Source: Marasmius tenuissimus
Taxonomy: Eukaryota > Basidiomycota > Agaricomycetes > Agaricales > Marasmiaceae
NCBI GenBank assembly: GCA_029532415.1
Contig: JAQOTA010000050.1
Coordinates: forward strand, 5,146,001-5,210,000
DNA length: 64,000 nt
Direction: 5' to 3'
In this document: piece after piece, positions 15,204 to 45,575 of the stretch
How the letters are laid out: every line of letters begins with the position of its first letter
How positions within the stretch are numbered: position 1 is the stretch's first letter
Position numbers and translations under genes: made by a program
The notes under the pieces: model-generated
The model's input: only the letters and a program-made list of their open reading frames with translations
The model's database searches: none
Told to the model about the DNA's origin: nothing

Positions 15204-15542
15204 TGAGCCTCATCGATAGTTCGGAGTTTTCCTCATGGTTCCCATCAGCAAGGCCCGAGAAACTGACGTATATCTACCTTCAAAGCACTGTTCCCCCGAA
15301 ATGAGGTCGCAATCGCACGGAATAGAGAATCCTAACGCAAAGAATTCATCCAGAAAATGACGAGCGCAGCGGAACTACTGACATACATAAAACCCGTCGC
15401 CAATCCGAGGCGTTATAATAGGTAGTGTAGTACTAATACATATCCAAAGAACAAGTCGTTGAGCATACCATACGAGCGAAGAAAAGGTGTTTAGGATATT
15501 CAAAATCAGCTAGACACCGGCGACCTAATCAATCTAACGACA

Positions 15543-18500
15543 TTACCAACCCCCAGCGATGTTACCACTGCCGTTGCTACTCCCACTCCACCCGTTCCAA
15601 TATTGTTGCGGTTGTTCGTAAGGAGCTGTACCAGGGTCATGGTTCTGTCCTCGGGACTGTTCCTGCGAACGCTCGGAGGGACCTCCGGCATGATATGGGG
15701 AGAACGAAGCGTATTCATCACCCAAGAGACTCAAATATCCTTGGATCGTCGAGTTGGGGAGACCCATGTCGACCTGCGTGGGATGCGAGTGGGGATAGCC
15801 GTCAACGGCGTCCACAGTGCCAGCGGGTCCCGATAGCGCGAGGTGAGACGAGTCCCATTCTACGCTTTGGGCAGTCAGGTCAAAGTATCTGGCAGCCTCC
15901 GTGGCAGTACCGACCGAGAAGATACGAGTTGACCCGGTGTGAGCTGAACTTCCACCAAAACCATCGTCGAAGTTGGTGGTACCAGCTCTTCTTGAGTTGG
16001 ATGTCAGCGGCACGTCATAGGGTCCTGCCATTGGCGCGAGCTGCAGCATTCCAAGTGATTCTATGGCCTGCTCGAACGTGATTGAGTCGTTGGGGAATGT
16101 GCTGACAGTGGCGGGCGACGTGACCTGGGATATCTCTGACCACCCGACACTTTGGGCGGGATTGTCATCATATCTAGCGGCATCTGCGTTGGTATCGACG
16201 AAGGGGGTACTTGGGGTGGTGTAAGCCGAGTTTGCTGTGTTCCCCATGGAAATGTTGTTCAAGTCAGCTCGATCAGCCCCAGCCGAGCTGAATACTGCTG
16301 ATTCGTTGAGGAGATCTGACGTTGTTGTGTACTGCGGCATCCCGAGCCACTGAGTGTGGGCATTGTTATTGAGCATATACGGCAAGTTGGATGTGATTGG
16401 GGTCGGCGTGTCCACATCACATGCTTCTCCCAACGAGCTTTCGAAGAGATGGGGATAGGGAAAGTGCTCTTGGTTGGCATTATGGCCTCCTGGATGGTCT
16501 TGGAATTGGTACGGATGGGCGTTCTCGATGGAGTGCAGGTTGACCGGATCTGTAAGGTGTGGTTCTTCCATGGCCTGGTTATTGTTGGCGGTCTCGTTCT
16601 CGTGCTGAGGATCCTGTGAGTGGTCTGAAGCGCACAACAAGAATAAATCCAAGAGCACACCTGTTCTGAGTGATAGTATCGGATCTGCATTCCTCTGGTC
16701 TCCGTCTCAGTCCTTTGCCTTTCCATAGTGAGTTCGTCCTTTCTGGTATATGGCGCTGCAATCTCAAGGACTTGACTACAACCCAGGTGAACCGGGACCT
16801 CGAATGGTACTTGGTATCCCACATCCCACATATGCTCAGAGTTGTCGGATCCACCTCGGCTGTCTGGAGGTTCTGTGCAGAGGTAAGTACTAGAATGAAC
16901 GATCGAGTGCTGAGCGCACCTGCGTGAACCTCTTCAAATCGCTCTGAGTTGTTGGTGGGCTGAAATATCACATAGTCAGATTTGAGATGTCGAGCAAAAT
17001 CGATGGTTGTTGGGTCAAAGCCACGGGCGAGCTGGTATTCACGTATGCGTTTGTAGTTGTCGGTATTCCAGGAGTTTCCTTGGAAGCCACACTCCTGGAA
17101 TTTGAGCTGCATGGGAAGGCCAAGATCGAAACATAATTCGGGTGAAAGTCGAGATCGACCGTCTTCGTGAAAAGACCAGAAATGTAGGGAGGAGGTGTAG
17201 TACTCGTTGTCGTTGTCGTCGCCATCAATGTGGGGGGGAGGTGGATGGAGAAAGAGGTAAATTGGCTGCTGGCGTCGTTTTTCGCGCTTGGAAGGGGTTT
17301 CATCAAGATCGCCTTCCAACCAAGCCCAACGAAAACCGAGCCCTGGACAACGGTTACGTTAGCCAGTGAAAAGGGATGACGATACGATGACGCACAATAA
17401 GCACTGACACTGCTGGCCAACCGTAATTTTACGACCGTAATTAGCAAGGTAAAATGCTTCGTAAAACACTTGGTTTTGCGGCCACATTCACCGGCGTCAA
17501 AAAGATATTTTTGAGCGCGCAAAGACACACGAAATACACGAGGCAAAAAGAAGATTTTTACGAGCGCAAAACTGTCCCGGATAAATCTCGGAAGCATTTT
17601 TACGGGCGTAAAAAGGCAAAAATCAAAGAAAATTGTCACGTTTTTCGCTCAAAAAAAGCAACCTTTGTCTTGGCTGTTTTGAGCGCTAAAAAATTGGTTT
17701 TGACGCCCGTGAATTTGGTCACAAATTCATATCTTTTACGAAGCCTTTTACCCCATTAATTGCGGGCGTAAAAACCTGGTTGGCCAGCAGTGTGAGATCT
17801 TCCTCCAAGGATATTCCTCGAGAATGAAAGAAGCTCAATGCTTGTGAAAGCCAGGCCACTCGTGTGTCCATATAATCATTCCACCTCACCCAAAACCCGT
17901 GTCCATCTCCTTCAACAAGTCGAAATCTACTCATATATTCTCAGACAGAGTGGCCTACGAATGACAATTATCTCACCTTGTCAACCCGTTATCCAAGACG
18001 CTCCTCGCCGCAAGGTAGTGGTAGTAGGCTAAGTGACGACTCGCCCAGATGTTATTTGCAACGGCGATGTGTGTTTGGGTCAGATTAGAAAAGACGATCG
18101 GTCGATGAGGCGATTCAGGCACATATTCTTCATCCCCAGTCGAACCAATGGCTTCCGCAAATGCGCGATCCACTTCTGCCGACTTTTGACTCACCAAGAA
18201 GCGAAATAAAATATCTTCTTGGAGCAAGTCGATAGTCAAAGGCAGATTTTCGACCTTCAAACGGGCATCGCAGGACGTAGTCAAGACTGGCGGCCCCATT
18301 GGTCCACGACAGATCAGTCCTCGTGCGGTATCCACCCACTGAGACTGCCAATTTGAATGTCCATTTTCTCGCTACGACGCTGCGTGATTGTAGTTCGACT
18401 CGGAGGTTGCTACTTCGGCTACTTACGCGTAGATTATAGAGATACCACCGACCCAGCACTCCTACATTTCTCCCAAAGTGCGCAATCGGCACGAGTCCTG

Positions 18501-21388: not shown

Positions 21389-21718
21389 CAATCATCGATA
21401 GCTCGGAGCCTTTTTCGTGGTTCCCCATCAACAATTCTTCGAAATACTGAGCAACTTGGAATGAGGCCGTGATCACATAAAACAAACAATCCTCACACTA
21501 CAAATCCATGCAGAGAAAGGACGAACACAGCGAAACTACTGATATACATGAAACTCGGTGCTAATCCAAAGTATTCCAGTAGGTAACGCAGTACTAACAC
21601 ATATTCAAGAAAATTAGTCATATCAACACTGATCAAACCATACGAGTGAGGAATAGAAGGTGCTTTTGAGATATCCAAAAACCAGCTCGACGCCGGCGAT
21701 CTAATCAATCCAACGACA

Positions 21719-22190
21719 TTACCAACCCCCAGCGATGTTACCACTGCCGCTGCTACTCCCATCCCACCCGTTCCAATATCGTTGCGGTTGCTCACAAGGG
21801 GCCGTACCAGGGTCATGGTTGTGTCCTTGGGGTTGCTCCTGCGAACGCTCGGGAAGACCTCCGGCATGATATGGGGAGAACGAAGCGTATTCATCGCCCG
21901 AGAGGCTCGGATATCCTTGGATCGTCGAATTGGGGGGAGCTACTGGCATGTTGACCTGCGTGGGATGCGATTGGGGATAGCCGTCAACGACGTCCACAGT
22001 GCCAGCGGATCCCAAAAGCGCGAGGTGAGACGAGTCCCATTCTACGGTTTGGGCAGTAGGGTCAGAGTATCTGGCAGCCTCCGTGGCAGTACCGATCGAG
22101 GAGATACGAGTTGACTCGGTGTGAGCTGAACTCCTCCCGCCAAAACCACCGTCGAAGCTGGTGGTACCAGCTCTTCTCGAGTTCAATGTA
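21719..22190 (-). pseudogene. Family protein copy B, C-terminal part
   Basis: Encodes the last 155 or so residues of copy B: NSRRAGTTSFDGGFGG through SSGSGNIAGGW, closely similar to the tail of copy A (NSRRAGTTNFDDGFGG). The part upstream of it lies 12.5 kb away at 34692-37532. The two halves meet in frame once the transposon and one copy of the 6 bp duplication are discounted. It has no promoter or start of its own. Confidence 0.85.
22185..22190. repeat. Left target-site duplication AATGTA
   Basis: AATGTA directly left of the transposon is repeated at 34692-34697 directly right of it. Confidence 0.9.
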
Positions 22191-22224
22191 TATGGCAACG
22201 GGGAGTGGACCGCTCTCTTAAGCG
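22191..22224 (+). repeat. Left terminal inverted repeat
   Basis: Starts TATGGCAACGGGGAGTGG and ends CTCTCTTAAGCG. It is the complement of 34658-34691 with three mismatches. Confidence 0.92.
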
Positions 22225-22686
22225 AGGTTCTGACAGCCGTATAAGGAGATAATGGATATAAGAGGAAGGTAGGCCCTCAGACACTCCTTTGTATGTTATC
22301 TTCAGGTTTGTTGCAATAAATACTTTGATGATTTCCGACGCGGATGTTCCACATTCCGAGTCGATATTCCGACGCGGATCTTCCGACACACTGCTACATA
22401 CAACTACCATGGACCTTCTCAGCACTCTCTCTTTTTTGTATCCTTTCGTTCATGTTTCTTCATTCCAATACTTTTTGTAGTGCCAATCTACCAGTTTTCC
22501 ATCTTACAGAGGACTTGAAGTTTGAAGATCGGACTTGATCTGGCACACTATCGCTGTGAGTCATCACAATACCGGCAATACCCTTATCAGCGTTGCGTAC
22601 AATAATGAGTCGATAGTAAATTTTTCACGTCGTCCTTTTTCTCCACACGCACTTTCTCCGTACGACTCTTGACTTCTGCATTCTAA

Positions 22687-24602
22687 ATGCCTAATCAACA
22701 TAAACCAATTCGTGAGTTCTTCAATCATGTCGGGTCATACTCAATCTCACACATTGGCATGTTGAATCAAGCACCGCCCGACCTCCTCGATCCCAAGTTG
22801 AGGCAATATTGGCACTATGGTTATGATGATAGGAAGATTGCTAGCCTGATTCTTGCTGATATCTCCAAGGATCTCCCTGAAAGTGACTATGGGCTCAGGT
22901 AATGCAGTCGGAAACCTCAATGTTTTGTTCATTCTCTCATACTTCACTAGTGCAAAAACAATCCAACGAGCGCGCAAACGTATCGGGCTGAAAGGCACGC
23001 GTCAGCAGAATGTTTCCTTCGAGGAGATGGCCGGCCCCATTGGCGAGCTCAAGAAGATCTATCCGATGTGGGGAGCCAGGACGTTGACTCAACAGCTCAG
23101 GATTCGTCATTCCATGAAAGTGCCCGAGTACGTGCTCTGTGTTAGATCAGTCAATGGAGTTGTCTCAATTGATGTGTTTGTGAAGAGACCGTGTTGCAAA
23201 ATTCTTGATGGCGGTTGAACCTGAACAAGTCAAGGCCAGGAAATATCAAGCACACAAACGGCGCGTGTTTCATTGTGCTGGCATTATGGATATAATCTCT
23301 GTGGACCAGCATGACAAGTGGAAGAAGTGGGGACTGTATCCACATCTGGGAGTTGAGGTGTTTTCGGGACGCCTGATGTGGATGAAAATTTGGTGGACGA
23401 ATAGCAATCCTTGTCTTGTTTGTTCTTACTACCTCGATGGATGTGAATCAGTTGGAGGTATGTGTAGACTATATCGTACCCAACTCGTGTTTCTAAAGTC
23501 TACGTCCAGGTGTTCCAATGACGACGCAAAGTGATCCAGGTACAGAGAACAACGGTATCGCCAATTGCCACACTTGGATCAGGCAAAAGCTCGATCCTGA
23601 CTTGGAAGGCACCTTGCAACACCGCTGGATGAAGCAAACCAAGAACGTGAAGCCTGAAATCCAGTGGTCCATCTTTCGCCGGATGTTCACCCCAAAGTTT
23701 GAGGAGCTCTTGGAGGAGGGAGAGACATATGGATTTTACAACCCAAATGATCCCGACTCTGTAGAGAGGTGAGTGGCGATCTATGTGCATCAATGGAAAA
23801 TACTCACAAGTGAATAGGTTGACTTTTCGTTGGGTTGCGATCCCGTTCTTCCAGCAGGAGCTAGACGATTACGTTGCAAGTAGGAACTCCACTCCTCGGC
23901 GCGCAAACAAGAAGAAGATACTGCCAGGGGGTATTCCAGACCACATCTTCCGGAGTCCAGAGGTCTTCAACAACTCCAAAAATTTCACTGTATGTGATGC
24001 TCCATTTCACGTTCCAATTGCAAAGCTGATAAGTCTGGAACTAGGTCACGGTGTCGAAAGAGGTGTTCGAAGAAGCTCAAAACTTGTACGCCCCTCCGAA
24101 CGACCCTGTCTTTGAGCTCGTGCCACCTGTCTTTGACATTGTCATCAAGGCTGCGCATTCTAGAATTGGTAGTCCGGCGCCAACATATGATACATTTTGG
24201 GGGGTCTATATGGCGCTTCTTGCAGAGGTTAGGGAAGCATGTGTTGCAATTGCTGCAGACATGGAAAGTGGATTAGCAAGGGAGGCAGAGATATTCAATG
24301 TGCATATGGAGTTGATGCCTGGGCAGAGATTTCGACCTGGCATGGATAATTTGCCAGGTCCTGCTGCGCAGCCGGTGCCGAACAGTTTGGTGTCTCCTTC
24401 ACCTTGTTCCACTTCTGTATCCCCAGAGGTAGAGAATGAGTACTGGGTTGAATTCTCTGATGATGAAGATGATGAAGACAGCGAGGCAGAGGATGGCATG
24501 ATTCCTCGATTTGTTTTTGATGACCTTCAGATGGACGCTGTGGATGAAGATGTAGACCTGTTTAACCATTTCCATGAGGATCTAGGCCCCATAAGCACAT
24601 AG
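22687..24602 (+). CDS. rve-superfamily DDE transposase (IS3EU/integrase-core type)
   Basis: Cuts and joins the transposon ends. The ATG at 22687 (MPNQHKPIREFF) opens an N-terminal helical region with an HTH-like stretch (DDRKIASLILADIS, then KTIQRARKRIGLKGTRQQ). The core follows: SVDQHDKWKKWGLYPHLGVE (first Asp), TTQSDPGTENNGIANCH (second Asp) and FFQQELDDYVASRNSTPRR (Glu), giving the D, D, E order of retroviral-type integrases. The C-terminus is acidic (FSDDEDDEDSEAEDG). Six exons with short introns join in frame; the border near 23128-23190 is my least certain. The architecture resembles integrase-core proteins of animal IS3EU elements. KDZ hallmarks are absent. It looks intact. Confidence 0.8.
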
Positions 24603-24818
24603 ATTAACTAGACTACAGATATATGTAATCTCTATGTTTGATTCCTTTTGACTGCAGTGAAATCTAGTACTTATGATAGCGTTGTGGCATATGGTCTATT
24701 GACACGCGAGTCACGACACATTGTTTCCCACGATACCACTTTTTTTTCATTCGGGAGAAGGGTTTGCCCTCTACTCCCTCTTGCACTCGAATTATCGTCG
24801 TCTCGTATCCAGATCATC

Positions 24819-27800
24819 ATGGCTCCTGCACAAAATATCCCCTCTGCAAAAAGTAGTGTAGCCTACAATGCTCCCTTCTCACACATCTCTTCTCGAGACT
24901 CCTACCAGCCCCCACCTTCCCATTCCAAACCCCCTGATAACGATCGTCCCACAAAGCGATGTGGCTTGTCTCCTCTTTGCAAAGGCACTGCCATATATGT
25001 CGTTGGTGCTCGCTTCTCCCGTACCCTGTGTGGCCCTCCACGCGATCACGCAAAATGTTTTTTGCAAGACATCTGCGTCAAGTGCCGCGATTACTACCAA
25101 GGTCCCTTGCTTGAAGACCTGAGGCTTTGTTACAATGACAAAAAATGTCAGGGCGGTGGCATTTTTCTGGCATATGAACAGAAGTTTACTACGTTCAACG
25201 ACACCAACACGGGTTCACAGCGACGTCTCTGTTCAATTTGCACAAAGGACTACCTTGACAGAAAGGGGACTAGTGCGACGCGTACCAACACTAGCCAGAC
25301 ACTTATTGTTGGTGCCACGACTGCTTGTGTACCTAGACCTTCAGTGAGCGGTCCTTCAGTGGATAGCATCCGAAGGGGTAATATAGACGCTCAGCGCGGT
25401 AGTGAGTCCCCATTTTCGTGTTATAACGATGTCCTGCTGAATGTCGATTGATCTGGTTTTAGGTCTCACAGCACCGGTAGTGCAAAGCCTCCCACAAATC
25501 GCTGATCGATGTGACTATGTGGACATATATCGGAATGCCATTGGGGGCAATTCAGCTCCAGTCCCACCTGCCCGCCCTCTATCAGCTTCAATGCCTCCGC
25601 CGCCACTACCAGTGAGTGGTCGACAAGGATATAGTGATCAACATCGGACACGGTCCCAAGAAGAGCATCGTTATAAAGACCTGGCGTTTGCTGGCGCTTT
25701 GCGCACTCACACAGTGGAGGTCAGGTCATGGCTTGTACGACTTGTTCCAAACAAAAAGTTGGGCGAGAATCTGCATATGGTACACATCCGTCACAGAGCA
25801 TCTATATCATCGCAACTGATATTGTTGTTTACAGTCATTCGTTCCCCTCTCTGGAATTCCCGTCACCATTGGGACACGTGCGCTACACCAGCTCTTCTTC
25901 GATACCCTTTGTTCAGGAGGAGATTCCGTGTTCTCTCGTTGGTTAGCATCACTTCCCGAACGTATACGTGACATTATTCCCTACTTGGGACGCGACGATA
26001 CCTACTTGAGCGACCACAACTTAATGCCCTATGCCGATGTTGATTCATTCATTCCGAAATTCTTCGAGAAGTTTTTCAAGCCCCCTCCCAATGCGAAATC
26101 AAAATCTTCGAACCAAGCCACCTCGAATAGCTTTGGTACATTGGGGCAATTCAAGCAGCCCAATCCACCTCTCACCTTGAATCTCGTCATCAGAGATGTC
26201 ATTTCCGAACGCATCGAAAAAGCTCTCCATGGCCCTCCGCCAGAGTTACCGCAAGAATCGGATCCAGAGCCCGAATCAGGAGATGACTGGAACAGCTATC
26301 AACAGGGGGCAACGACAGCTATGGCTCCCCGGAGGTCTGTTGCTGTGATTGTCTCGAAGGCAAAACGGCGCCCTGTAGGCTACCAAGTTCTATTGATAAA
26401 GTGATTGGCTAATGATAACACATTACTAGACAACGTCCACTCCCGCCGCTGCAAGTTCTGATGAGTCAGAGGTTGAACTGGTACAGCCAAAGACAAAGAA
26501 GCGAGCAGTGAGTCAAATCCTTGTCATGACTCGGTATCGGTGACTCTAAATTTCTTCAGGCCCCAAAGTCAAAGACACCCACCGATGGTAGTTCTTCCGG
26601 ACCCCTTACACGTGCAAGGACTAGGCAGGCTGCCAGGTCGAATGATAAACCTCCGGCTTCGGAAACTCTGCAGTCGCCATCAGTGAGTTTTGTCAAGTCT
26701 CAGCCAACTACTGCATATTAATGATCTTGTGGTAGAAACCAAGGACTAGCCGTAAGGCAGCAACAGGCCACCGTTCCTCTGAACCCCTTTTTGTACCTGA
26801 TGAAAACGACGACATGGACATGGACATATCCGTCTCTAATGCAGGCCACATCACAACAAATGCGAATGGGACTCAAGTAGCAGGATACGACATGGAAATC
26901 AATATCAACCAGCTCAGCTCAGCAATTGAACGTCAGGTGGTTGGATTGGATAGCAGCGGTAGTGCTTTTGGTGCGTCTAGATGCTGTCATAAACCTCTCT
27001 TTCCATACCAACTCATCGACACTAGGTCAATGGAAAACGATTGGCTTGTTGATAATGAAGGCCAAGGCACTCCCCTTACAGGACCTTATAACTCTGGGCT
27101 CTGATGAAGATTTACGAGTGCGGGTGCTGAGTCCACCTACGTTCGCTACCCTTTCCTTCTCAGGCAGTCAGAAACAGATGTACGGTGGCTTCAAGGTTGC
27201 CTGGCTGGGTACGGCCTCTCCTTCTGTGTTCTCCGACACAAACGTCTGTATCAAGCAAGCCTTTGAAGCACAACCCGTCGAAGGAAAACCCCATGCAGTG
27301 GCTGCAAAGTTACTGACCGGTCTGACACAGTATCACAGGCTCGAAATGGAGGTCTTGTCGATGACATGGGGAGCGACTCTTCTTACTCAATGCATCGAGT
27401 ACTGCAAGGCCATGGAAGCACGTGGGACTGTCAAGTCAATTCCTCTGCCAGATGTGCGCTTTGCAGAGTGCGCTTTGGCTGTTGCAGCCGTGAACATGAC
27501 GCCAAGATCAGGCGGGCCTTACTTCATGTTGGAGGAAGTTGTTGGGGGGCGCTGGCGAAAGTTCAAGGATAACCGAAGCGTGCTGACTCTGCCCAACGTT
27601 CATGATGAAGATCGCGATCTTGCAGACTGGCTTTCGTTTACCCAGCATTGCCAATATCAGTTCACACAAAAGATGGCCTTTATTGCGGATTATCAAGGTC
27701 GGTTTAATACCTCTGTTTTTGCTGGATCTGACATTCTTTGTGTTAGGAAATGACCGAGTGCTTACGGATCCCCAGATTATCACACACCCGTGAGTTGTTC

Positions 27801-28032
27801 CATTGCTACCGACGCCTGAGTTCCTAACATTTCCTGCAGAGCCCTGTCTTATACCTTTGCGGGTGGAAACAACCCAGATTGCTATTGGGAGATGGAGGTC
27901 TGGCATGAGTGCAATCGTTATTGCAAGCACTACCAGCTTATCGAAGATTGGGATGCCATTCCTAAAGCTCCTGTGCTTGTGGATCTCAAGAAGCAGATGA
28001 AGATCGTTCGGCCGAACATTTCCCGGGAGTAA
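24819..28032 (+). CDS. Alpha-type protein kinase with Cys-rich N-terminus
   Basis: Atypical serine/threonine kinase of the MHCK/eEF2K class carried by the transposon. The start is MAPAQNIPSAKSS. A Cys-rich segment follows (CGLSPLCKG, KCFLQDICVKC, LCSICTKDYL), then a long Ser/Pro/Lys-rich middle over several exons (about 25430-26900). The C-terminal catalytic domain shows GGFKVAWLG, NVCIKQAF (candidate ATP-binding lysine), GRWRKFKDN, FTQHCQY, FIADYQG, LTDPQIITHP and the zinc-site motif WHECNRYC. Exon borders in the middle are uncertain. Alpha-kinases are strongly expanded in basidiomycetes; carriage by a DNA transposon would be one way to spread them. Confidence 0.75.
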
Positions 28033-28172
28033 CGTTCGCTATTTGTTTGCAATGCCCTTTGTGCCGCGTCTTGTCATGAATGTGACCATATTCAATTGAA
28101 CTGTATTGATATGTGAGCGCAGGAAATACATCTATTCGGACGATACAGCAGTATATAAGTGGGAAGCAGTTA

Positions 28173-31042
28173 TTAACAATGTCCTCGCGCATGCATCCAG
28201 GCATGTAAACATGCACGGTCAACAACAAGTGGTAGGGGGAAAGTTTGCAGCTCGTTCGACCCATGCTTGCACAAGCTATCCAAGTCAGGAAACTTCCTAC
28301 ACCACCGAACCAGTTTACATAGGATATGCTCCAAGAAAATAGTCCCAAAATGTAGAACCTTCTTGTCGTCCGTGCTCAAGTGCATGTCCAAAAAATCATA
28401 CACACACCGGAAAGCTTGAGTGACGCTTTCGAGATTGTGTTCACCGTTGTATCCCAGTATGGAAAGGCCTGTAAGGGCACCCTTCTTGAGATTGAAGGCA
28501 ACCGCTGCAATCTCCTCAACTGTCGGATGTTGACATACACCAAGAAGGGCCAACGTATTTGCAAGCTGCAGGTTGGTCAAACTCTTTTCCCCGAACCCAT
28601 CGACTCGTATAGAGGATCTGAGTGCTAATGCTTGCTTGAACGAGGGTAGAGGAGTAGATGCGTCGGCGTTCTGCCATCGTTCAGCAAGGAAAGACTTCCA
28701 CGACTGTTGAACGTGGTCAGAGAAGAAGTCGTCAATCCTTCCCTGAATACCATCCTTCCGCCGCGTCGAATTCTTCAGAGACAGTTGATCACAGTACTGT
28801 CCCCAGCAGCTTGCGTTGAAGTATGACATGGGTGTGCTAGAGGATTGATTGCTGGCTGCAACCGCCTCGAAGACGTTCGCGCAGTCCTTGGCAGATGTAA
28901 ACCACTGCGACAGGTGGTTGTGGATAAACTCCTCTGTAGCCGAGCCCTGTCCAGTGCCCAAACGCACTAATAAGTTCGACAGACCCCAAGTTGAGTACAA
29001 TGTTCCGTTTCGCTCGTTCGAAGAGAGCGCATCACTGAGGCTCTCTTCAAGAAGGGTTTGAGCTCGATTGCATGCCCGAACAGGATCAACATGATCAACA
29101 TCGTGTTTGGAATGGCTGCTGGTAGTGGGGTGCTGTCCGTTGAGTATACGGCGCAGAGAGGAATTGAAGCAAGGAAGTTTGCGACGCTTTGCCAGAACCT
29201 CACGAAGAATGAATGAAAGGCATGCAAATCGTGGACTGTCGACAAGTGGAAATATAGTGGAAAAGGGAAACTCGGGTGGAACACGAGGTCCCTCGGGGAT
29301 TCTGATGAGACGCTTTTTGAGCTTTCTAGCTGGTTTTCGGGATGATATGGCGGGAGGAAGTGGGATCTGACAAGTGGAGTTCACACAAAAGCGTATATCC
29401 CTAGCTATCTGTCGACATATGTCCTGGACTTCGCCTCGCTGACGCTGGAGCTTGAGCCAACGGACCAGAGGCAGAATGCTATCAGGTTTGGAGGTGATCC
29501 GTTGCGCAATCTCCTTTGCCTTGGCCTTGCCAAATAGCAACCACGGGGAGACTAATACATGATCAATACCCGGTGCACAGAAAATGCCATCATTGTCAAA
29601 CGCCTCTACTAGGGCATCAAGGACTCCTCCCCGGACTAGAGCTCGGCTTTGAATGTCCTCGATCTCCTGGCCTTGATTCGGGCGACCCCATTTGGTGTCC
29701 ATGGCCTTCAAACTGTCAAGGAGTGCATGTCGCGATATGAACTGGGTGAAGACCATAATGCAGGCCTTTCGATCATTGCCCGGTTGGGTTAGACCAAGAG
29801 AGTCAGGAAGAACGTATTCGTAGGTACGGGACTTCGACGGCAGCCATTCTGGCAGAACGGATGCCTGAATAACCAGCTTGCGTGATCCAGAGCCTGTTTG
29901 TCGCGGAGATTGTTTGTGCTTCTCGATGAAGGCTTGGATTGTCTGTTTCAGTGACTGCAGTGAAGCAAAGGACGATGGCGGAGTATCTGGGTTGAACAGC
30001 TGGCTGGCAATAAGTGGGCCATAAACAACGTGCCACCGGTATAGAAACAAGAGCGCCCGGCAAGACATCAGAGTCAAGGCCGACTTGATGATGGTCAGTA
30101 GTCCGGCGTTGCCATCTGCATTCAACTGTGCTGTCTGCGCAACATGCAGGCTACACACAATGCTCTGCACTCGTAGCTCTGTGAGCACAGCACCTGCGTC
30201 ATCAAACTCCCGCGCAGCAGACTGCAACGAGGCAGATTCAGCCGTGAGGCTGTGGGTGAGACTCTGAAGTGGTATAGTCGATACTGGTCCTGAAGGAAGG
30301 GCTTTGCACAGAGCAGAGATATCGTCAGCTGCCTGGCGTATTGAACGGATATCGAAAAGTCGAGACCAGGTTTCAACCACGAGATCACTGCCGGCAATCT
30401 CTGATCGAGCATGGGCAACCCGCTCAGGATCTAAAGAGGCACGGTACTCCTCAATAAGATCTGGCCTGGAATACCCTATAAGCTGAGACTTTCAAATGGT
30501 TCAGGGCAAAAGTTACTTACGCATCCATAGCTGTTTCAAATACCCATTCATCGTGTGCAGCACTATAGCCACTAAAACGTACGAGAAAACTCTCATCCTC
30601 CTTGTCCTGTAACAGGATTTAGCGGGCAGATACAAGTCATGTATTGCAAACATACCTCATCAATGATGAATGACATCTGATACTCGTTTTCTGCCAGTGA
30701 AGAGTCACGAAGAATGGGGCTTGTGGGTCGAGGGAGAATTGGGACGGGGTGAGTAGTAGTACGAGTCTTCTGTACATTACTCTTCTTTCGCTTCCGAGGG
30801 GGGGGAGTTGATGAACCACCCTCATCACTTGAAGAATAACAAGGTTCAGGAATAGATACCACATTGGACGATGCCTGTGTATGACGTGAGGGAGCTCGCC
30901 GGGGTCGCTTTAGGCAGGACTCTGTCACTCCGTCTGAATCATGATGCCCAGAATGTTCGAAACTCTCTGGCATTGCTTCGGATCTGGATTGTGATCGTAG
31001 AGAGTGGGAATGGGTGGGTAGGTCGGGATTGTTGCTTTGCAT
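28173..31042 (-). CDS. Chromo-domain protein with large helical C-terminus
   Basis: Three exons. The first (31042 down to about 30656) is basic and disordered (PRKRKKSN). The chromo domain spans exons 1-3: EYQMSFIIDE, FLVRFSGYSAAHDEWVFETA, PDLIEEY. It keeps the aromatic-rich W/Y pattern of chromatin readers that bind methylated histone tails. About 700 mostly helical residues of unknown function follow, ending HAWMHARGHC. The ATG at 31042 is only 20 bp from a MITE. Leaving out the MITE and one TA, the reading frame runs on from the dioxygenase upstream (DLT, then EPSDG, then MQSNNPDLPTH), so this was probably the C-terminal half of one protein. Confidence 0.65.
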
Positions 31043-31054
31043 GCCATCAGAGGG

Positions 31055-31390
31055 CTCAGTACATCGGGAAGATCACAAAAAACCGTTCTTGGCCGTTCTT
31101 GGCCTGTACAGGCTGAACGGCCGGGTCCAGACCGGCTATGTCGGTTTTTCCGCAGGCTGGATTTCCCTTGTAAAGACCCGACCATACAGCTGGCCTCCCC
31201 TAGGATAATTTGAGCTCACTGTGATCCTTGTGTCAGATCAACATTGCTAATAGTATTGATTCCCTCATATCAATGAAATCATGTCCTCTGAGCGAGATAT
31301 TTGGGTCACATTTTGCAGCTGTCCAGCCGTTCAGCCTGCAAATATGGCTTAAGGGTCGAAAAAGGCCGGAACCGGCTGCCGGAAAATTAC
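31055..31390 (-). other. Possible MITE-derived intron
   Basis: On the minus strand a GTAATTTT donor lies at 31390 just inside the MITE, and a pyrimidine-rich stretch ends at an AG (31055-31056) just beyond it. Removing these 336 nt joins dioxygenase codons (SGRR) to chromo-gene codons (PSDGMQSNN) in the same phase. Other introns here are 50-70 nt, so this one would be unusually long. Prediction only. Confidence 0.35.
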
Positions 31391-31404
31391 CCGTCTTCCT
31401 GATG
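31062..31404 (-). mobile_element. 343 bp MITE, copy 2, nested in the transposon
   Basis: Same length and inverted ends as the copy at 4326-4668, in opposite orientation. TA flanks both sides. It lies between the dioxygenase and the chromo-domain gene. The dioxygenase stop at 31349 falls inside it, so the last 17 or so residues (SGRRVIFRQPVPAFFDP) come from the MITE. Confidence 0.8.
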
Positions 31405-33497
31405 TAAGGTCACCAACACCTTGCCTTTCAAGATTGTGTGGTGCTGCCCATGTCGAAGGCGTCACTGTAGATGTGCCAACAGAATGAGGAACGACTGAGC
31501 TGGAGGATTGGCTCGCGGAATTGGGCTGAGCATCGGGCGCAGACAAGGATGCCTCCTTGGCCTGCCTCTGTGCATTGGCGAACTCTGCCTTCGTCATGCG
31601 CATGTAGTAGTCATTGGAATCATTCCAATGCCTGCGATAGTGGCCCCGCATGAACTTCATTTTTTCCCGGTCACGTACTGGATCAAGTGGTGGTGGAGGG
31701 ATTTCAATGACTTTCCCCGTCGAGTTGTCGGTCATCGGGGGAAAGGATGGATGCAGGGAACGGTTTATCTGTGACACGACATTGTAATTCCGATAGTGAA
31801 GCTCCCATGCAATACGTGTGAGATGTGAGGATGAGTGGCCTAGGGCAGGAATCCCGTCATGGGTGAAGTTATGAATACGATCGTCTTGGCCATTGGTGAC
31901 AAGGTCGTTTCCTAAGCCAGTGGGTGCGGATACCACAACAGGGGAAGTTCTCTCAGTCGCCTCAAAGTTCGGGTACAGAACATAGGCACAACGATTGATT
32001 TCGTCGACGTTGTTATATCTCTGCGCAAGCTCGGACAAGAATTCCTCCTTTGCATCTGCGTTCACCGATGGAGCGGTACCACTATGGAGATCGTTGCCCT
32101 TGAATAGAAGGAACACTCGGACTTCTCCATCTGCGCCCACATCAACACGGCAGTAAAGGCCAGAACGAGCAAGGAGAAAAGCCCCCATGTCACTGCCTAG
32201 ATATAAAATGAGCATATTCAATCAGCAGAAGTCAATAACGCTTACCAGGTGGGAGCCGCATATATAGGATCAGAAGCGTCCATCTGGCCCAATGATCGTT
32301 TTTGTCTACATGCCAACGCCCTTGAACCTCGCCAATGAAACGACCAAGATCCCCTCCGAGAGAAGCTGAGGAGAAGTTTCCCTGAACACTTGTTGGCCCT
32401 GGACTCAGACCCCCGGCGGAAAAAACATTGAGGTCGGTGTCGCGAAACTGTGTCACTTCCCATTCAGCCTTGGTAAGGCATAGCGGCACGATCTCCTGGT
32501 ACAAGGTATTCATGGCCTCAAGAGCGGTAGCAATGCGGGCTTTTGCTTCTACTCCATTAGCCTGAACTGCGGGAGATATAGTGCCGCGTCCACGACCCTG
32601 CTCTTGGACGACGGCAAAGGAGTAGGATCCATCAGGGGATTCGGGGTCATCTGGAATGCCAGAACGCATGTTGCGCTTTAGTCCAGGCAGACGATAAATG
32701 GGAGTATTTCCATCATACCCCCATGAAAGGTCCCACAACGTATCACTAGCTGCCTTGACACGGGCATATCGTTCACTGGGAAGAATAGCCTTAAGGCTCT
32801 CGAGACTGTGGCAGCAAGCAGTGGTGACAAACCGCCGCTCATCTCCATTGATTGTGACACCGAACGGTATCCCAAGAGGCATAGGGATCATGCTTTCGAT
32901 TGGTTTGAAACAGAATTTCCGTGACTCGCTGTTCCATGTGGGATGGGTTCCAGGAGGTGTTTTTGTGAGGAGGAGGCTTTTATGATGATCGGCTTTGTCC
33001 TGCACAAAGAAGGGGGCTGAATATGAGTGACCGCCCTGGAATCGCCAGTCGTCTTGTCGAAGGCTGTATATGGGAGCTTTGGGATAGGTGTAACCAGATG
33101 GGGGTCCACTCGATACAGGATTGCCCTCCAATGATGGAGGCAATGAAGCGTGCGGAAACTGGAGGCGAAACGGCGGTTGATAGAACCAGCGAACATCCGT
33201 TGGTTCAATATGCGGAGCGGGTTTGGTGATTTTGGAGGTGGGAAGGGCGTAGACTATAGTTGAGATTGCAGGTCATTGACAGTGAAATACGCGTGCAGTA
33301 TATGGGACTGACCATCCACTTCATCCGGGTCGGCGATGTCAGTGGGACAAAGATCTGGGGTAATTTGAAAATCAAGGCCAGCCCCACAACGAGCAATGCA
33401 CTTTACCGTTGGTCTCAGGTGGTTGATGGGAGTTCAAACTGTCCCCTTGAGGCATTGATTCAGAAGACTCGAGGACTTGGGATGAGGGGGTGTTCAT
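31349..33497 (-). CDS. TET/JBP-like 2-oxoglutarate/Fe(II) dioxygenase
   Basis: Probably oxidises methyl groups on DNA bases (5-methylcytosine or thymine) by family; the substrate is not known here. The start is MNTPSSQVLESSESMPQ at 33497. Two short introns precede the long exon, and one more (32222-32247) joins MRLPPG to SDMGAF. The double-stranded beta-helix is GRWHVDKND (H-x-D iron ligands), SDMGAFLLARSGLYCRV, then FKGNDLHSG (distal His) and NRCAYVLYPN (Arg for 2-oxoglutarate). This order and the LHSGTAP context match, from memory, fungal TET/JBP proteins usually linked to KDZ transposons. The C-terminus reads into a MITE; without it the frame enters the chromo-domain gene. The 2-oxoglutarate fold is more secure than the TET/JBP assignment. 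Confidence 0.65.
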
Positions 33498-33729
33498 GAT
33501 GATGGGAGGGAGAGGAAGAGAAATGATCAATTGTGGAAGCTCACGACGCGTGATGCGTGAAGAGTATCACTGCAAATCAAAGGCAGTTACAGGACAATAT
33601 TCACAGTAAAAATCAGGTTTTCAGTTAGAAGAGGAGCAGACATAGATGTCAACAATAGAGGATAGGTATTGAATTCATTGATTGGTACTCGATATAAGGA
33701 GATACAATAGTGCGATAGTGGAGGTGATA

Positions 33730-34270
33730 CAATTGGGGATTGTAAGCACTCAAATGGCAGTGACAACAGTGTATACATTCTCCCTGACCTTGAAAACCCC
33801 CAGATACCAAGTTTTGGAGTACCAGGAGCTGTATTGATCTCAATGGAAGTCAATGTTTGTAGGGGGAGGAGGAGGGGGTGTCAAAAACTCGCCTTTCTCA
33901 TGACCAGGTGCCCAATCTGACTTCATATTCGTGTTCCCCAACCTCAAAAACCCTAGAACGAGCCTTTGACGCATTTCTGGCATACCCACAAAAGGGGGAA
34001 ATTGTTGGCTTTGGGTTGGGATAGGGGGGTGGTGAAAACAGAGGTTTGGAGCACTCGGATAGCGACAGCGATGGCATAGGTGTCTTCCCTGACCTTGAAA
34101 ACCCCCAGATACCAAGTTTTAGAGTACCAGGAGCTGTATTGATCTCAATGGAAGTCAATGTTTGTGGGGGGAGGAGGAGGAGGTATCAAAAACTCACCTT
34201 TCTCGCGCCCAGATGCATAAATCAACTTCATATTCGCGTTCTAAGACCCAAAAAACCTCAGAAAACCCAG
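33730..34270. repeat. Two tandem ~305 bp subterminal repeats
   Basis: The segment CCCTGACCTTGAAAACCCCC and about 130 bp after it occur at about 33780 and again at about 34085 with over 90% identity; the remainder of the unit is more diverged. It lies in the right subterminal region of the transposon, upstream of the dioxygenase gene, so it may serve as promoter or transposase-binding sequence. Confidence 0.7.
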
Positions 34271-34346
34271 GCAGAGCAATGGAGAAGGGGAGGAAAATGA
34301 TCTGGTGGTGTGAGGAAAATGGCGGGCTCTGATTGGCTGGCTAGTA

Positions 34347-34384
34347 GAATCCTCCCAGTTCCAAACAACAAACTGGGAGGATTC
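34347..34384. repeat. Perfect hairpin in the right subterminal region
   Basis: GAATCCTCCCAGTT and its exact complement are separated by 10 bases. Outer arms GATTGGCT (about 34331) and AGCCAATC (about 34404) extend the symmetry. Confidence 0.75.
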
Positions 34385-34657
34385 ACAAGTCACATGGCTC
34401 ATGAGCCAATCATATCACGACACCCATATATGGCTCGGTGGGAGAACGAGAACAAGCCTTGAGCAGGCGCTATTCAACCTGACCTCAACATATTCCACCC
34501 TCACCCGGATGTTCAGACAGCTGAGAACATCCGGTTGCTCACCTCCCCACACACCCGGGAGTATAATATACAGAATAAATAGTGAAAAAAATAATATCCG
34601 TGTTGCGCTACATATTACTACCGACTGGCGGTCCCCGAGGTCCCAATACTGGGACGG

Positions 34658-34691
34658 CGCTTAAGAGAGCAGTCCACTCTCCGTTGCCGTA
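34658..34691 (-). repeat. Right terminal inverted repeat
   Basis: The complement starts TACGGCAACGGAGAGTGG. Three mismatches to the left end. Followed directly by AATGTA at 34692-34697. Confidence 0.92.
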
Positions 34692-37532
34692 AATGTAAGT
34701 GTCACATCAAAGGGTCCTGCCATTGGCGCGAGCTGCAGCATTCCTAGTGATTCTATGGTCTGCTCGAACGTGATTGAGTCGTTGAGGAATGTGCTGGCAG
34801 TGGCGGGCGACCTGACCTGGGATATCTCTGACCACCCGACACTTTGGGCGGGATTGTCATCATATCTAGCGGCATCTGCGTTGGTCTTGACGAAGGGGGT
34901 ACTTGGGGCGGTGTAAGCCGAGCTTGCTGTGTTCCCCATGGAAATGTTGTTCAAGTCAGCTCGATCAGCCCCAGCCGAGCTGAATACTGCTGATTCGTTG
35001 AGGAGATCTGGCGGTGTTGTGTACTGCGGCGTCCCTGACCACTCGGCGTGAGCATTGAGCATAAACGATGGGTTGGATGTGACTGGAGCTGTCGTGTCCA
35101 TGTTGCGTGTGGTGGGCGACGCTTCTCTCAACCAGGAGCTTTCGGGAAGGTGGAGGCAGGGAAGGTGCTCTTGATTGCCACTGTAGTCTGCTCGATGGTC
35201 TTGCAATTGGTACGGATGGGCGTTCTCGATGGAGTGCAAGTTGACTGGGTTTGTAAAGTGTTGTTCTTCCATAGCCCAGTCATCATTGGTGGTATTGTTC
35301 TCGTGCTGAAGATCCGTGAGTGATTCGAAGCGCACAAAAAAACTATTATATAATAGCGCACCTGTTCTGGGTGATTATACATCTGCATACCTCCGGTCCC
35401 TATCTCAGTGCTCTGGCTTTCCGTAGTGAGTTCGCACTTTTTGGCATATGGCGCTGCGCCCTGGACTTGACTACAACCCATGTGAGCCCGGACCTCAAAC
35501 CGCATTTGGTCCCCCCTATCCGGTAGATAATCCGAGTCGTCGGATCCATCGAGGCTGTCGGGGTGTTCTGTGCAGAGGTAAATACAAGGAAGAATAAGTA
35601 AGTGTTGAGTTCACCTGTTGGAATCTCTTGGATTTGATCTGAGTCGTGTTTAACGGGTTGGAACAGTACGTCGTCAAATTTGAGATGTCGAGCAAAATCG
35701 ATGGTTGTTGGGTCAAAGCCTCGGGCGAGCTGGTATTCATGGACGCGTTTGTAGCTGTTGGTGTTCCAGGAGAGTATTTCGAGACCAAAACATCCAAATT
35801 TGAGTTCGACGGGGAGGCCGAAGTCGAAGCATTCCTCGGGTGAAAGTGGAGATTGACCGTCTTCGTGAAAAGACCAGAAATGGAAGGAGGAGGTGTAGTA
35901 TTCGTCGGAGTCGTCGTCAAAATCGGGGGGAAGTGGACGAACAAAGAGGTAAATTGACCGCTGACGTTGTTTTTGGCGTTTGGAAGGGGATATATCAAGA
36001 TCGCCTTTCAACATCGCTGTACATCTGGCAAGGTCTGGTCGATGTTAGCCAGTGCAAAAGAAATAACAACACAATGACGCACGATAAACGCTCAAATCCC
36101 CCTCCAGAGAGATTCCTTGAGAATGAAACACGCTCAACGCTTGTGAAAACCAGGTCACTGCTCCGCTGTCCCAATTCCACCACACCATAAACTTTGTCCA
36201 GTCATCATCTCCTTCGACGAGTCGGAATCTTTTCATGCGCTCTCAGACAGACTCGTGGCTCATGATTAATGATTCTCTCACCTTGTTAACCCGTTCTCTA
36301 AGACGTTCCTCGTTGCAAGCCAGCTACGAATGAGGGGGGAGCGAAAACTCCTCCAGGCGTTATTTGCGACAGCGATCGATGTTCCGGTCAAAGCACAGAC
36401 GATACTCGGCCGATGATGCGATTCAGGCACATATACGTGACGAATTTGCCCACCCACACCCATCGCTTGCACAAACGCGTGATCCACTTCTGCTGACTTC
36501 TGACTCACCAAGAAGCGGAGTAAAATATCTTCCTGGAGGAATTCAATGCTTGAAGGTAAATTCTCCACTTCCAAATAGGCATCGTAGCCTGCGCTCAACT
36601 CATCGGCTGACTCCACCGGCCCTAGTGGACCACGACAGATCATCCTTCGGACAGGATCAACCCATGTGGTTCGCGTCCAGTTCGGCCAGTTCATCCAGTT
36701 TCTGGATCGCGAATCCCACTACAACGGCGTTATTCAAATATTCGATTGTACTACATGTGCTACTTACATATAGGGTACGGACATACAACCGACCCAGCGG
36801 TCCCATATTTCTTCCAAAGTGCGTGATCGGTAAAAGTCCTGGATAAAACAGCCATTAGTTTCAGTGCCCCAGCAATCAAGTGTATAGAAAGTTACTTACC
36901 ACCCAAGAAAATCAGTAATGGAACTTTGGACCGATTGAGTGCAACAAGATGAGCGTTTTTCAAGCATCTGAAACTCCAACTTTGAGTCATCCTCGTCAGA
37001 ACGATGGTAGAAGAGACCTACAGGTGTCTAGAATAGGTGATGAAGCTTTGTTTCCAATCCTGCCTTGACAGTCAATAGCGTGAGACGTGCTCAGAAGGCC
37101 CAAGTGCGTACCTCTGGGGCTTCACTGCCTTCATAGGCCTCCACTATGACCATAGTCCCTTTTTGATCCCCCGACACAATCTCCCCGAGGAAGGTGCTTC
37201 GTTCACAACCTATTGGAACGCAATGTCCTGCCATCGGATCATACGTCTCTAATCTTCCCCGAGATATCATCTGGTGCAGCCGAATTTCGCTCCGTTTGTA
37301 TTCACCATACTGCGAGATTCGACCAAAGTGAGCGTGCAGCATGCCCAAAGACGATAATCTTGTTACTCACCTGTTCATACTCTGCCTCCTCTTCTTCCGT
37401 GCCACGAATATAACGATATGTAGACCGTTTCTGCTGAATCACCGTGTTGTTGTTGACAGTGAAGTTCCCATAACCAAAATTGATATTTTGATCCCTCGCA
37501 GGCTGCATGATGATGGCTTCTTGCTCGTCCAT
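34692..37532 (-). pseudogene. Family protein copy B, N-terminal and middle parts
   Basis: Starts MDEQEAIIMQPARDQNINFG at 37532 and follows copy A exon by exon: GNFTVNNNTVIQQK, STFLGEIVSGDQKGTMVIVEA, LLPITHFGRNMGPLGRLY, WMNWPNWTRTTWVD, ICRGPLGP, then YLFVRPLPPDF, FHFWSFHEDGQSPLSPE and YQLARGFDPTTIDFARHL. The disordered tail begins and is cut at AGPFDVTLT by the transposon. A frame of 12 or so codons runs into the left-facing TIR before a stop, so a truncated protein lacking the last 155 residues could still be made. Confidence 0.75.
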
Positions 37533-40256: not shown

Positions 40257-41869
40257 GCGAGTTTTATCAATAAATTGGAGTTTCTTCTGTGATATCCCCG
40301 TCAACGTGCTAGCCATTGTCCGATATTCATTTTTGAAAGACTGAGCATCCTGGAAGTGTGGTCATAATCAAAGTGGATAGACAATCCTGGCACTACGATC
40401 CCATAGAGAAAAATGATCTTCGCAGCCAAGCTATTTATAATCATTAATCTCGTATCCAGGGGCCAGCCCGAAGCGTTCCAATAGATATCACAGTAACGAG
40501 ACAACGAATTATAGCTGCAGCAAGCAAACAATATGAACGGGAAAAAAGAAAGTACTTATAATATCCAAAACCAGCTACTAGACGCCAATACATTAAGCAA
40601 TGTTACCACCCTCCAGCGATGCTACCATCGTTACTATCTCCACTCCACCCGTTCCAAGATGGTAGCATTTGCTCGTCGGAAACTGTGCCGGGGTCGTAGG
40701 TCTGTCCTTGGAATTGCTCCTGCGAACGCTCGGCAGGACCTCCGCCATGGTATGAGAAGGCCAACGCATATCCACTATCCGAGTGATACGGGAGGCTCGG
40801 ATACGTTTGGTGCGTCGAATTATGGGGACCTGTATCGACCTGCATGGGATACGAGAGGGGATATCCATTAACGGCGTCAATGATACCAGTGGATCCCGAT
40901 GGTGCGAGGTCAGACGAGCCCCATTCTACGCCTTGGGCAGTCGGGTCAAAGTATCCGGCAACAGTCGTAGTAGTATCGACCGAGGAGATGTGAGTCGGCT
41001 CGCTACGAACTGAGCTCGTCACGTTCATATCAAAACCGTTGCCCACTGGGTTGGCAAGACCAGCTTCGAATGAACTGAAAGTCGGCGATTCGACGAGAGG
41101 GTCTAGCATTAGAGTGGAGTCGAACGCGTTTACACCGGCGGTGAGCGGTCCGATCTGGGCTGTTCCTGGCCAACCGGTCCCTTGGGCGGTATTGTCGCTC
41201 TGCCTGTAGGCGGTTGTGGTGCCAGAACTGAACAAGGAAACGATAGGCTCGGAGTGATCTGAGTTCGTCGTATTCCCGGTGAAGTCGTTGTCCATGTTGG
41301 GGTGATCAGCATTGGACGAGTTGAATATCGGTGGTTCGTCGAAAGGATCTGGCAGAGGCATGTACTGTGACATTCTGAGCCACTCGGCATGGGAAATGAA
41401 CATGGACAATTGATTGGATGCGACTGAAGCCGGCGTGTTCACCCTGTGTGCGGTGACGGATGCATCTTCCGACGAGAGGATTTCGGAGAGGAAGGGATGG
41501 ACAAAGTACTCTTGGTTAACATTGTAACCTGCTGGATGAATTTGCGATTGGTACCCCTGGTACGGATCGGCGCTCTCGAGGGAATGTGAGTTGACTGGGC
41601 TTGTGAAGGGTGAAAACCTTGGCGAAAGCGGTTGGACAAGTCGTAAATTCTGTTCTTCCTTGGCCCAGTCAACGTTGGTGGAATTGTTCTTGTGCTGAAG
41701 ATCCTGTGAGTGGTCTGTCGAGCGCACAATAACAAGGGGGGGAAGGGATGAATCCAATAGCGCACCTGTTCTGGGTGATGGTACATTTGTATCCCCCCTA
41801 TCTCTATCTCAGTGTTCTGCATTGTCGTAGTGAGCTCGCCTATTCTGGTATGTGACGCTGAACGCTGGA

Positions 41870-41917
41870 CTTGACCACAGCTCATGCAGAACACTTGACT
41901 ACAGCTCGTGCAGACTA
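41870..41917 (-). repeat. 24 bp tandem duplication creating a double CxxC motif
   Basis: Two adjacent 24 bp units with a few mismatches. Each encodes a C-x-S-C-x-Q/x-V type block where copies A and B have a single GCSQV. Confidence 0.7.
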
Positions 41918-43103
41918 GGAACTTCGAGTTGTCGGATCCATTGGAGCTGTCAGAGTGTTCTGGGCAGAGATAAATACAAGGATGAACAGATGAGCGTTAA
42001 GTGCACCTGTATTGAGATCTTCAGATCGATCTGAGTCGTTGATGGGTTGGAACACTACGTGGTCAAACTTGATATGTTGAGCAAAATAGATGGTCGTCGG
42101 GTCAAAACCACGAGCGAGCTGGTATTCATGTATGCGTTTGTAGTTCTCGGTGTTCCAGGAGGATGCTCTGAGGCCATGATCATTGAGTTGGAGCTGGACG
42201 GGAAGGCCGAAGTCGAAACACAACTCGGGTGAAAGTCGAGATTGGCCGTCTTCACGGAAAGACCAGAAATGGAGGGAGGAGGTGTAGTACGCGGTGTAGG
42301 ACGCGGTGTCGTTGCCATTTTTGTCATCGCTGAATTCGAGGGGAGGTGGATGGACAAACAAATAGATTGGGTGTTGGCGTCGTTTTTGGCATTTGGAAGG
42401 GGATCGATCAACATCGCCGTCCAACCACGCCCAACGCACGACGAGGTCTGGTAGATGTTAGCCAGTGAAAAAAGAATAACAATGCAATGGCGCACGATAA
42501 ACGCTCAGATCTTCCTCCAATGATATTCCACGAGAATGAAACAAGCTCAACGCTTGTGAAAACCAGGCAGCTTCTATGTCTGCACCTACATCATTCCACG
42601 CCAACCTGAAACCGCCAGCAGCTCCTTCAACAAGTCGGAATCTACTCATGCGATCTCAGACAGAGTGGCCTATTATTGACAATCATCTCACCTTGTGAAC
42701 CCGCTTTCTAAGACTTTCCCCGCTACAAGGTGCGAGTCACGGTCCGGGTAGATGCTGGAGCAAAACCTCGTCCGAACATGATTTGCGACAGCGATGGATG
42801 TTCCGGTCAGAGCGGAAATAATGTTCGGCCGATACGATTCAGGCACGTATTTGGGATAGTTGGGATAGTCGAATTCCTAACCTCTCGCACGAATGCGCGA
42901 TCCACCTCTGCCGACTTGTGACTCACCAAGAAGCGGAATACAATATCCTCCTGGAGAAGTTCGATGCTTGAAGGTAGATTCTCCACTTCCAAACGGACAT
43001 CATAGAACAAGCCCAACACATCGTTTGACTCCGACGGCCCCAGCGGACCACGACAGATCACCCTTCGGGTGAGATCCACCCATGTAGTTCGCTTCCAGTT
43101 CGG

Positions 43104-44731: not shown

Positions 44732-45575
44732 CCAGTTTCCAGATCGCGAATCCAACTATGGCGGCGTTGATTCAAATGTTCGATTCTACCACTTCGGCTG
44801 CTTACATATAGGGTACGGGCATACATCCGACCCAGCGGCCCCATATTTCTTCCAAAGTGTGTGATCGGTACGAGTCCTGAATAAATCAACTATAAGTATT
44901 AGCAATCAAGTGTATATGTATAGAAGTTTACTTGCCACCCAAGAAAATCAGTAATGGAACTTTAGACCGGTTGAGCGCAAGAAGATGCGCGTTGTTCACG
45001 CATCTGAAACTTCAACTTCATGGCCTTCTCAACATAACAAAGGTATAAAAGACCTACAGGTGTCTGGAATAGGTGACGAAGCTTTGTCTCCAATCCTGCC
45101 TTGACGGTCAATATCGCAAGACATGCTCAGAAGGCCCAAGTGCGTACCTCTGGGGCTTCACTGCCTTCATAGGCCTCCACTATGACTATAGTTCCCTTTT
45201 GACTCCCCGACACAATCTCCCCGAGGAAGGTGCTTCGTTCACAACTTATTGGAACAAGCTGTCCAGCCATCGAATCATACGTCTCTAATCTACCCCGAGA
45301 TATCATCTGGTGCAGCCGAATTTCACTCCGCTTGTATTCGCCGTACTGCGAGGTTCGACCAAAGTGAGCGTGCAGCACCCCCCAAAGACGACAACCTTAT
45401 TACTCACCTGTTCGTACTCCGCCTCCTCTTCTTCCGTGCCACGTATATATCGAGACGTAGATTGCGTCTGCTGAAATACCGTGTTATTGACAGTAAAGCT
45501 TCCTGAGCCGTGATTGGAGTTTTGATCCCTCCATGAGTGCACTGTGACCATCTTGCTTTGTCCGTCGGAGTCCAT

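Follow-up and report, generated by a model that had tools for sequence, protein, structure and literature searches.

An IS3EU-type DNA transposon carrying an alpha-kinase gene and a putative TET/JBP-like dioxygenase–chromodomain fusion gene

The element, its ends and its genes

The window, by which we mean the whole analysed stretch of 64,000 nucleotides, contains a complete DNA transposon of the IS3EU type, which occupies 12,501 bp on the forward strand (22191..34691). It opens with a 34-bp terminal inverted repeat (TIR), TATGGCAACGGGGAGTGGACCGCTCTCTTAAGCG (22191..22224, + strand), and closes with a second one (34658..34691, − strand) that is identical to the left repeat at 31/34 positions and differs at 3/34. 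The target-site duplication (TSD) AATGTA is found directly to the left (22185..22190) and to the right (34692..34697) of the element. The site is single in the tandem host copy A, which holds an uninterrupted homologue of the insertion site (15765..16255), with GATGTC at the site itself (16000-16005). When we joined the window flanks in silico, they matched this stretch of copy A at 92.7% over 494 columns, the element being absent there. Indeed, the host ORF is continuous in copy A, and the ORF of the second tandem copy is split by the transposon. The initial annotation had proposed a complete element with exact ends, and the 34-bp inverted ends, the AATGTA on both sides and the empty site in copy A were all verified. 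The host paralogues form a tandem family located at 15500-17400, at 21650-22190 together with 34692-36100, and at 40600-46500. Near its right end, the element additionally contains two copies of a 178-bp repeat with a spacing of 305 bp (33781..34263).

The transposase gene (22687..24605, + strand) was modelled with six exons, separated by five GT-AG introns of 49-55 nt, and encodes 552 aa, which bears out the presence of the transposase that had been claimed from the sequence. Its integrase core matches the Pfam family rva_4 with an E value of 1.4e-5 and 25.3 bits, 0.7 bits short of the cut-off of 26. Reading by eye, we assigned D173, D232 and E273 as the probable DDE residues and found only a single Cys before D173, hence no HHCC zinc motif ahead of the core. 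The second gene on this strand encodes an alpha-kinase (about 24819..28032); its start and stop are proposed and its exon structure is provisional. The kinase domain lies in the ORF 26881-27753 and reaches 28.1 bits against Pfam PF02816 (cut-off 21.3), and the N-terminal part of the protein is conserved in two relatives of the element on contigs C10 and C33. The third gene (28173..33497, − strand, six exons) is a fusion that joins a putative TET/JBP-like dioxygenase to a chromodomain and a long C-terminal region; a nested miniature element (MITE) interrupts it. At least three genes besides the transposase had been expected, and we find two, one of them a long fusion. The description of the cargo as "chromatin and signalling" genes is fair for a chromodomain–dioxygenase fusion and an alpha-kinase.

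IS3EU/GingerRoot elements are defined, in the available part of PMC10045372, by TA..TA termini, a TSD of usually 6 bp and the lack of an HHCC zinc motif before the core. The element is alike in all three respects, with TSDs that are mostly 6 bp, and adds two further genes; the likeness is one of descriptive features. All four complete elements that we found in the genome (4/4) carry inverted repeats and end in TA(Y)..(R)TA, and the TSD measures 6 bp in three of the four (C7, which is the window copy, C30 and C10), with a 7-bp repeat at C5. Termini, TSD and transposase type support the placement in IS3EU, in line with the initial assignment, for which the TAY..RTA ends, the long TIR, the 6-bp TSD and an rva-type integrase core just under the Pfam cut-off all agree. 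Contrary evidence, as named at the outset, would have been a clear affinity to a superfamily whose duplication has a different length; none was seen in this comparison of termini, TSD and transposase type. We also considered an identity as Kyakuja/KDZ and rejected it: KDZ elements have CA..TG termini, no TIR and a 7-bp TSD (available text of PMC12730594), features that this element does not show.

Copies and subfamilies in the genome

The genome that we searched comprises 71.06 Mb in 70 contigs. An IUPAC pattern of the 34-bp ends gave, with up to three mismatches, four matches genome-wide. They form two pairs in inverted orientation, the members of each pair lying about 12.4-12.5 kb from one another; the reversed pattern, used as a control, gave none. 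A search for further 34-bp ends about 12 kb apart had been suggested, and the second pair excludes that the ends occur only once. It delimits a full copy of 12,446 bp on contig C30 (C30:1863576-1876021), in opposite orientation to the window copy and flanked by the TSD GAGAAA. The two copies differ by 60 substitutions in 12,141 aligned columns (99.5% identity) and by three indels. One of 15 bp lies in the alpha-kinase region, one of 345 bp in the window copy corresponds to the MITE and its duplication, and the third is a 305-bp unit in the C30 copy, which hence has one more such unit in the right-end repeat. Searching the genome for an allelic empty site with the left flank of the window element returned only its own site and the two tandem paralogues; with the left flank of the C30 copy, we obtained only its own site and 27 short matches that look like dispersed repeats.

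Among the best candidates scored, a transposase search gave at least 40 matches, which group by place into at least 11 loci. They revealed a second subfamily of about 11.1 kb with two complete elements, one on C10 (C10:5221239-5232318, 6-bp TSD TGTAGG) and one on C5 (C5:1670453-1681546, with the 7-bp instead of 6-bp direct repeat CAGGGTT). The C5 element has both ends and matches to the transposase, the dioxygenase and the C-terminal region, and over the 2,994 bp that we compared it differs from the C10 element at a single base, a TCG/TTG difference. From this near identity we conclude that the second subfamily moved very recently. The dioxygenase part of C5 contains stops over one stretch that reads open in C10. 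The C10 element has the same gene order as the window copy: transposase, N-terminal part of the alpha-kinase, kinase and, on the other strand, the dioxygenase fusion. The transposases of the two subfamilies are about 60% identical in the core and 39-42% identical elsewhere. With two full copies in different TSDs and a second subfamily, the element family is mobile.

Besides the complete elements, we found a decayed relative at C13 and, at C33, a related transposase with an alpha-kinase and a right end; a left end was searched for at C33 and not found. Within the first 700 bases of the reverse complement of this C33 locus, an ORF that ends upstream of the transposase has a weak similarity to the last part of the C-terminal region, with a best E value of 8e-5 against a Hymenopellis protein. 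On two further contigs, kinase and transposase matches lie close together in opposite orientation (C3, kinase at 4156253 and transposase at 4160059; C31, kinase at 649121 and transposase at 644933).

The fusion gene and its catalytic part

The fusion gene is made up of the catalytic region, a low-complexity linker, the chromodomain and the C-terminal region, which is about 740 aa long. In the C30 copy it is intact, with six exons and 1,571 aa, and in C10 it is open in a four-exon model of 1,521 aa with a provisional start; the two proteins are identical at 504 of 1,396 aligned residues (36%). A Hymenopellis radicata protein of 1,429 aa, predicted by others, aligns with the C30 protein at 36% in 1,467 columns, and the alignment covers the dioxygenase, the chromodomain region and the C-terminal region. 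Because this match is full-length, the fusion is unlikely to be an artefact of our splice modelling. A model in which the 772-aa ORF and the dioxygenase belong to two different genes was also considered and rejected, since the spliced readings of C30 and C10 and the Hymenopellis protein favour one gene. Taken alone, the 772-aa ORF had no relative at E≤0.001 among 7,990 candidates scored. The chromodomain reaches 34.4 bits in C10, above the PF00385 cut-off of 25.1, and 22.1 bits in C30, below it (E 0.011 in the whole C30 protein). Its top PDB match is CBX5 (E 0.0058). A Pfam search of the Hymenopellis protein found no domain.

The window copy of this gene is interrupted by the nested 343-bp MITE (31062..31404), which has the ends CATCGGG...CCTGATG, is flanked by TA on both sides (31060-31061 and 31405-31406) and is absent from the C30 copy. 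Past the dioxygenase part, it contributes a few residues followed by a stop, so that the chromodomain and the C-terminal region are lost; judged from the predicted reading frame, the insertion is a natural separation of the dioxygenase from both. The MITE has CATCR..YGATG ends, with 2-bp duplications, read by eye, in the window copy (TA) and in several other copies. These termini agree with those of PlavakaB as given in the available text of PMC12730594. Of the 42 matches that the whole element has in the genome, 36 fall on the MITE, at 67-99% identity.

The dioxygenase–C-terminal arrangement is seen outside the complete elements as well. A genome search with the dioxygenase gave 30 matches in 14 loci, and the C-terminal region gave 14 matches in nine loci. 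All nine of the latter have a dioxygenase match upstream on the same strand, within about 1.6 kb in eight cases and at about 6 kb on C35. Four of the nine (C7, C30, C5 and C10) lie inside complete IS3EU elements. For the other five (C12:724.2-728.9k, C14:573.1-577.7k, C39:813.7-818.3k, C37:944.7-949.2k and C35:809.7-818.8k), the best candidates scored include no IS3EU transposase on the same contig, showing that the fusion is wider than the IS3EU element. TET genes are indeed described as passing between transposon lineages (PMC12730594, available text).

What, then, is the catalytic part? In our alignment of seven sequences (A2), HxD is present in all six rows that reach it. A distal H is kept in 7/7, as is an R downstream of it all (R369 in the first row). 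The nearer R of an "NR" pair is found in five rows and missing in two, and either R is a candidate 2OG binder. This pattern of HxD, distal H and R is that of TET/JBP, and other 2OG-Fe(II) enzymes have it too. At E≤0.001, relatives of the catalytic part numbered four among 7,997 proteins scored in a first search and eight among 7,998 in a second. The named ones come from Pleurotus, Mycena, Hymenopellis and Marasmius, which are Agaricales, and on the strength of these hits the host is probably an Agaricomycete.

The dioxygenase part did not match Pfam PF12851 (Tet_JBP). A PDB sequence search with a profile of seven relatives returned chance-like matches only and no TET, and NCBIfam assigned no family to the three relatives submitted. 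Aligned by hhalign with the one PF12851-like ORF found in the genome, a piece of 119 aa that is itself under the Pfam cut-off, the part gave no match. The AlphaFold models of the Mycena and Pleurotus eryngii relatives, which stand in for the window protein, are poor (mean pLDDT 33.5 and 40.7), and Foldseek with the second, low-confidence model gave no hit at E≤0.001. With Pfam, profile, hhalign and structure support absent, we label the region only "TET/JBP-like, putative". It does not belong to the PE type of Kojima 2025, which we rejected because the PE hallmark is HxE (PMC12730594, available text) and the sequence here is HxD.

The fused enzyme could instead be a 2OG dioxygenase that acts on targets other than DNA, such as histones or RNA, or no dioxygenase at all. 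We regard this as unlikely, though it is the most serious competitor. The Pfam, PDB-profile, hhalign and structure searches, which give TET/JBP no support, speak in its favour. It has to contend, however, with the conserved HxD, distal H and downstream R and with the position of the gene in an IS3EU element beside an alpha-kinase, a setting in which TET/JBP genes occur in the elements of rusts and a truffle. Moreover, Kojima describes a TET-like group that is likewise barely detectable by sequence (both points from the available text of PMC12730594). We thus keep the putative TET/JBP-like reading.

CpG transitions, known relatives and possible function

The substitutions between the window and C30 copies are strongly skewed: 58/60 are transitions, and 45/58 of these lie at CpG. 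The preceding base shows no strong preference (TCG 13, CCG 12, ACG 10, GCG 10). CpG cytosines make up 1,120 of the 6,141 cytosines in the element (18%), which gives a binomial p of 1e-22 for the CpG excess. As a control, three host paralogue pairs in the window showed 204 transitions and 90 transversions, with 57/204 transitions at CpG. The difference from the element (Fisher p 1.6e-11) is a rough measure, as the control pairs are more diverged. The observed/expected ratio of CpG is 0.74 for the element, against 0.94 for the remainder of the window, and a DNA methylase domain (PF00145) scores above its cut-off at five places in the genome. These data suggest that the element has been CpG-methylated, with deamination of 5mC in CpG context as the simplest reading.

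In its available text, Kojima 2025 (PMC12730594) describes IS3EU elements of fungi that end in TAYGG..CCRTA, have TSDs of 6 bp and carry an alpha-kinase alongside a TET/JBP gene. The TET-positive ones occur in seven Pucciniales species and as one family in Tuber indicum. The element in the window resembles these in its TAYGG..CCRTA ends, a TIR of more than 30 bp and the 6-bp TSD, and also in the combination of a transposase, an alpha-kinase and a, here putative, TET/JBP gene. The view that such a cargo would be unusual for IS3EU is therefore outdated. Several features set our element apart. In Kojima's elements, the TET gene lies between the transposase and the alpha-kinase, which are opposite in orientation (PMC12730594, available text); the window copy and C10 instead have transposase (+), kinase (+) and dioxygenase fusion (−). 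The main text of that paper mentions no chromodomain, "chromo" occurring once, in a reference title. The host here is probably an Agaricomycete, unlike the rust and truffle hosts, and for Agaricomycotina the available text lists Kyakuja, Zisupton, EnSpm, Plavaka and Helitron2, and not IS3EU (PMC12730594). The alpha-kinase family is highly expanded in rusts (PMC4469406, available text), and one may speculate that part of this expansion might be IS3EU-borne.

With the AG-type TET of Kyakuja and Zisupton and with CcTET, our element shares a transposon-borne TET-like gene in Agaricomycetes. Kyakuja differs in its CA..TG ends, lack of TIRs and 7-bp TSDs (PMC12730594, available text), and the window enzyme differs in escaping detection by PF12851. 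The PE-type TET/JBP-like genes of Agaricus, Laccaria and Gymnopus transposons are likewise very divergent TET-like domains in Agaricomycete transposons, with HxE (PMC12730594, available text) compared with HxD in the window family. Among the papers that our literature search listed, none was seen to report a chromodomain–TET fusion in a transposon; Iyer et al. 2014 may mention related architectures. What appears to be new is hence the predicted fusion to a chromodomain and C-terminal region, the gene order, a divergent HxD enzyme invisible to PF12851 and the probable mushroom host.

Building on the observed gene order, open reading frames, ends, TSDs, copies and CpG transitions, we think it probable that the element is an autonomous IS3EU transposon of the cut-and-paste kind, that it was active recently and that it brings along a putative chromatin-targeted anti-silencing module. 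The rve/DDE transposase would bind the 34-bp inverted ends and insert the element with a 6-bp duplication, as the anatomy implies, and the two further genes would travel as a fixed module. The chromodomain would bring the dioxygenase to silenced chromatin, where it would oxidise methylcytosine in the element copies and so counter silencing, and the kinase would support an anti-silencing or transposition step. In its full form, this proposal is tentative and somewhat less likely to hold than not: the chromodomain would direct a TET-like 5mC dioxygenase to silenced copies with the help of the alpha-kinase, and the heritable module would be older than the subfamilies and would have spread among mushroom transposons.

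A different explanation takes the extra genes as passive cargo, captured from the host and of no benefit to the element. Such capture would fit the dioxygenase/C-terminal fusions at C12, C14, C35, C37 and C39, since the gene can exist outside IS3EU, and it would fit the failure to demonstrate selection between the window and C30 copies. Neither the fusion gene, with 12 synonymous and 12 nonsynonymous changes (expected synonymous share 0.32, p 0.05), nor the transposase, with 2 and 5 (p 0.77), gave evidence of purifying selection in this comparison, which has little power. On the other hand, the three-gene order and orientation are common to two subfamilies that share about 60% identity in the transposase core and 36% in the fusion, and an alpha-kinase is found in all TET-positive IS3EU families of the available text of PMC12730594. 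Additionally, from genes of about 1,500 codons that are open in two subfamilies at 36% identity, we infer a long-term constraint on the fusion gene. We consider passive cargo improbable. Segmental duplication or an assembly artefact in place of transposition is very hard to uphold: only two complete copies per subfamily were found, but the four complete elements have four different flanking repeats (AATGTA, GAGAAA, TGTAGG and CAGGGTT), the left flank of C7 has no match at the C30 site, nor that of C30 at the C7 site, and copy A retains the empty site.

We therefore return to the anti-silencing module, in which the carriage of a kinase and a putative demethylase-like chromatin-reader fusion may aid the escape from host silencing. 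When transposons carry TET genes, one may ask whether they actively remove the DNA methylation that their host imposes. A TET-like domain joined to a chromodomain, in a gene that is open in two subfamilies and has a mushroom homologue, would provide for targeting, and the CpG transitions between the two copies suggest that this element does receive the methyl mark that would be erased. The results also suggest that PF12851-based searches miss such elements. Finally, the presence of close copies with open genes makes the anti-silencing idea testable.
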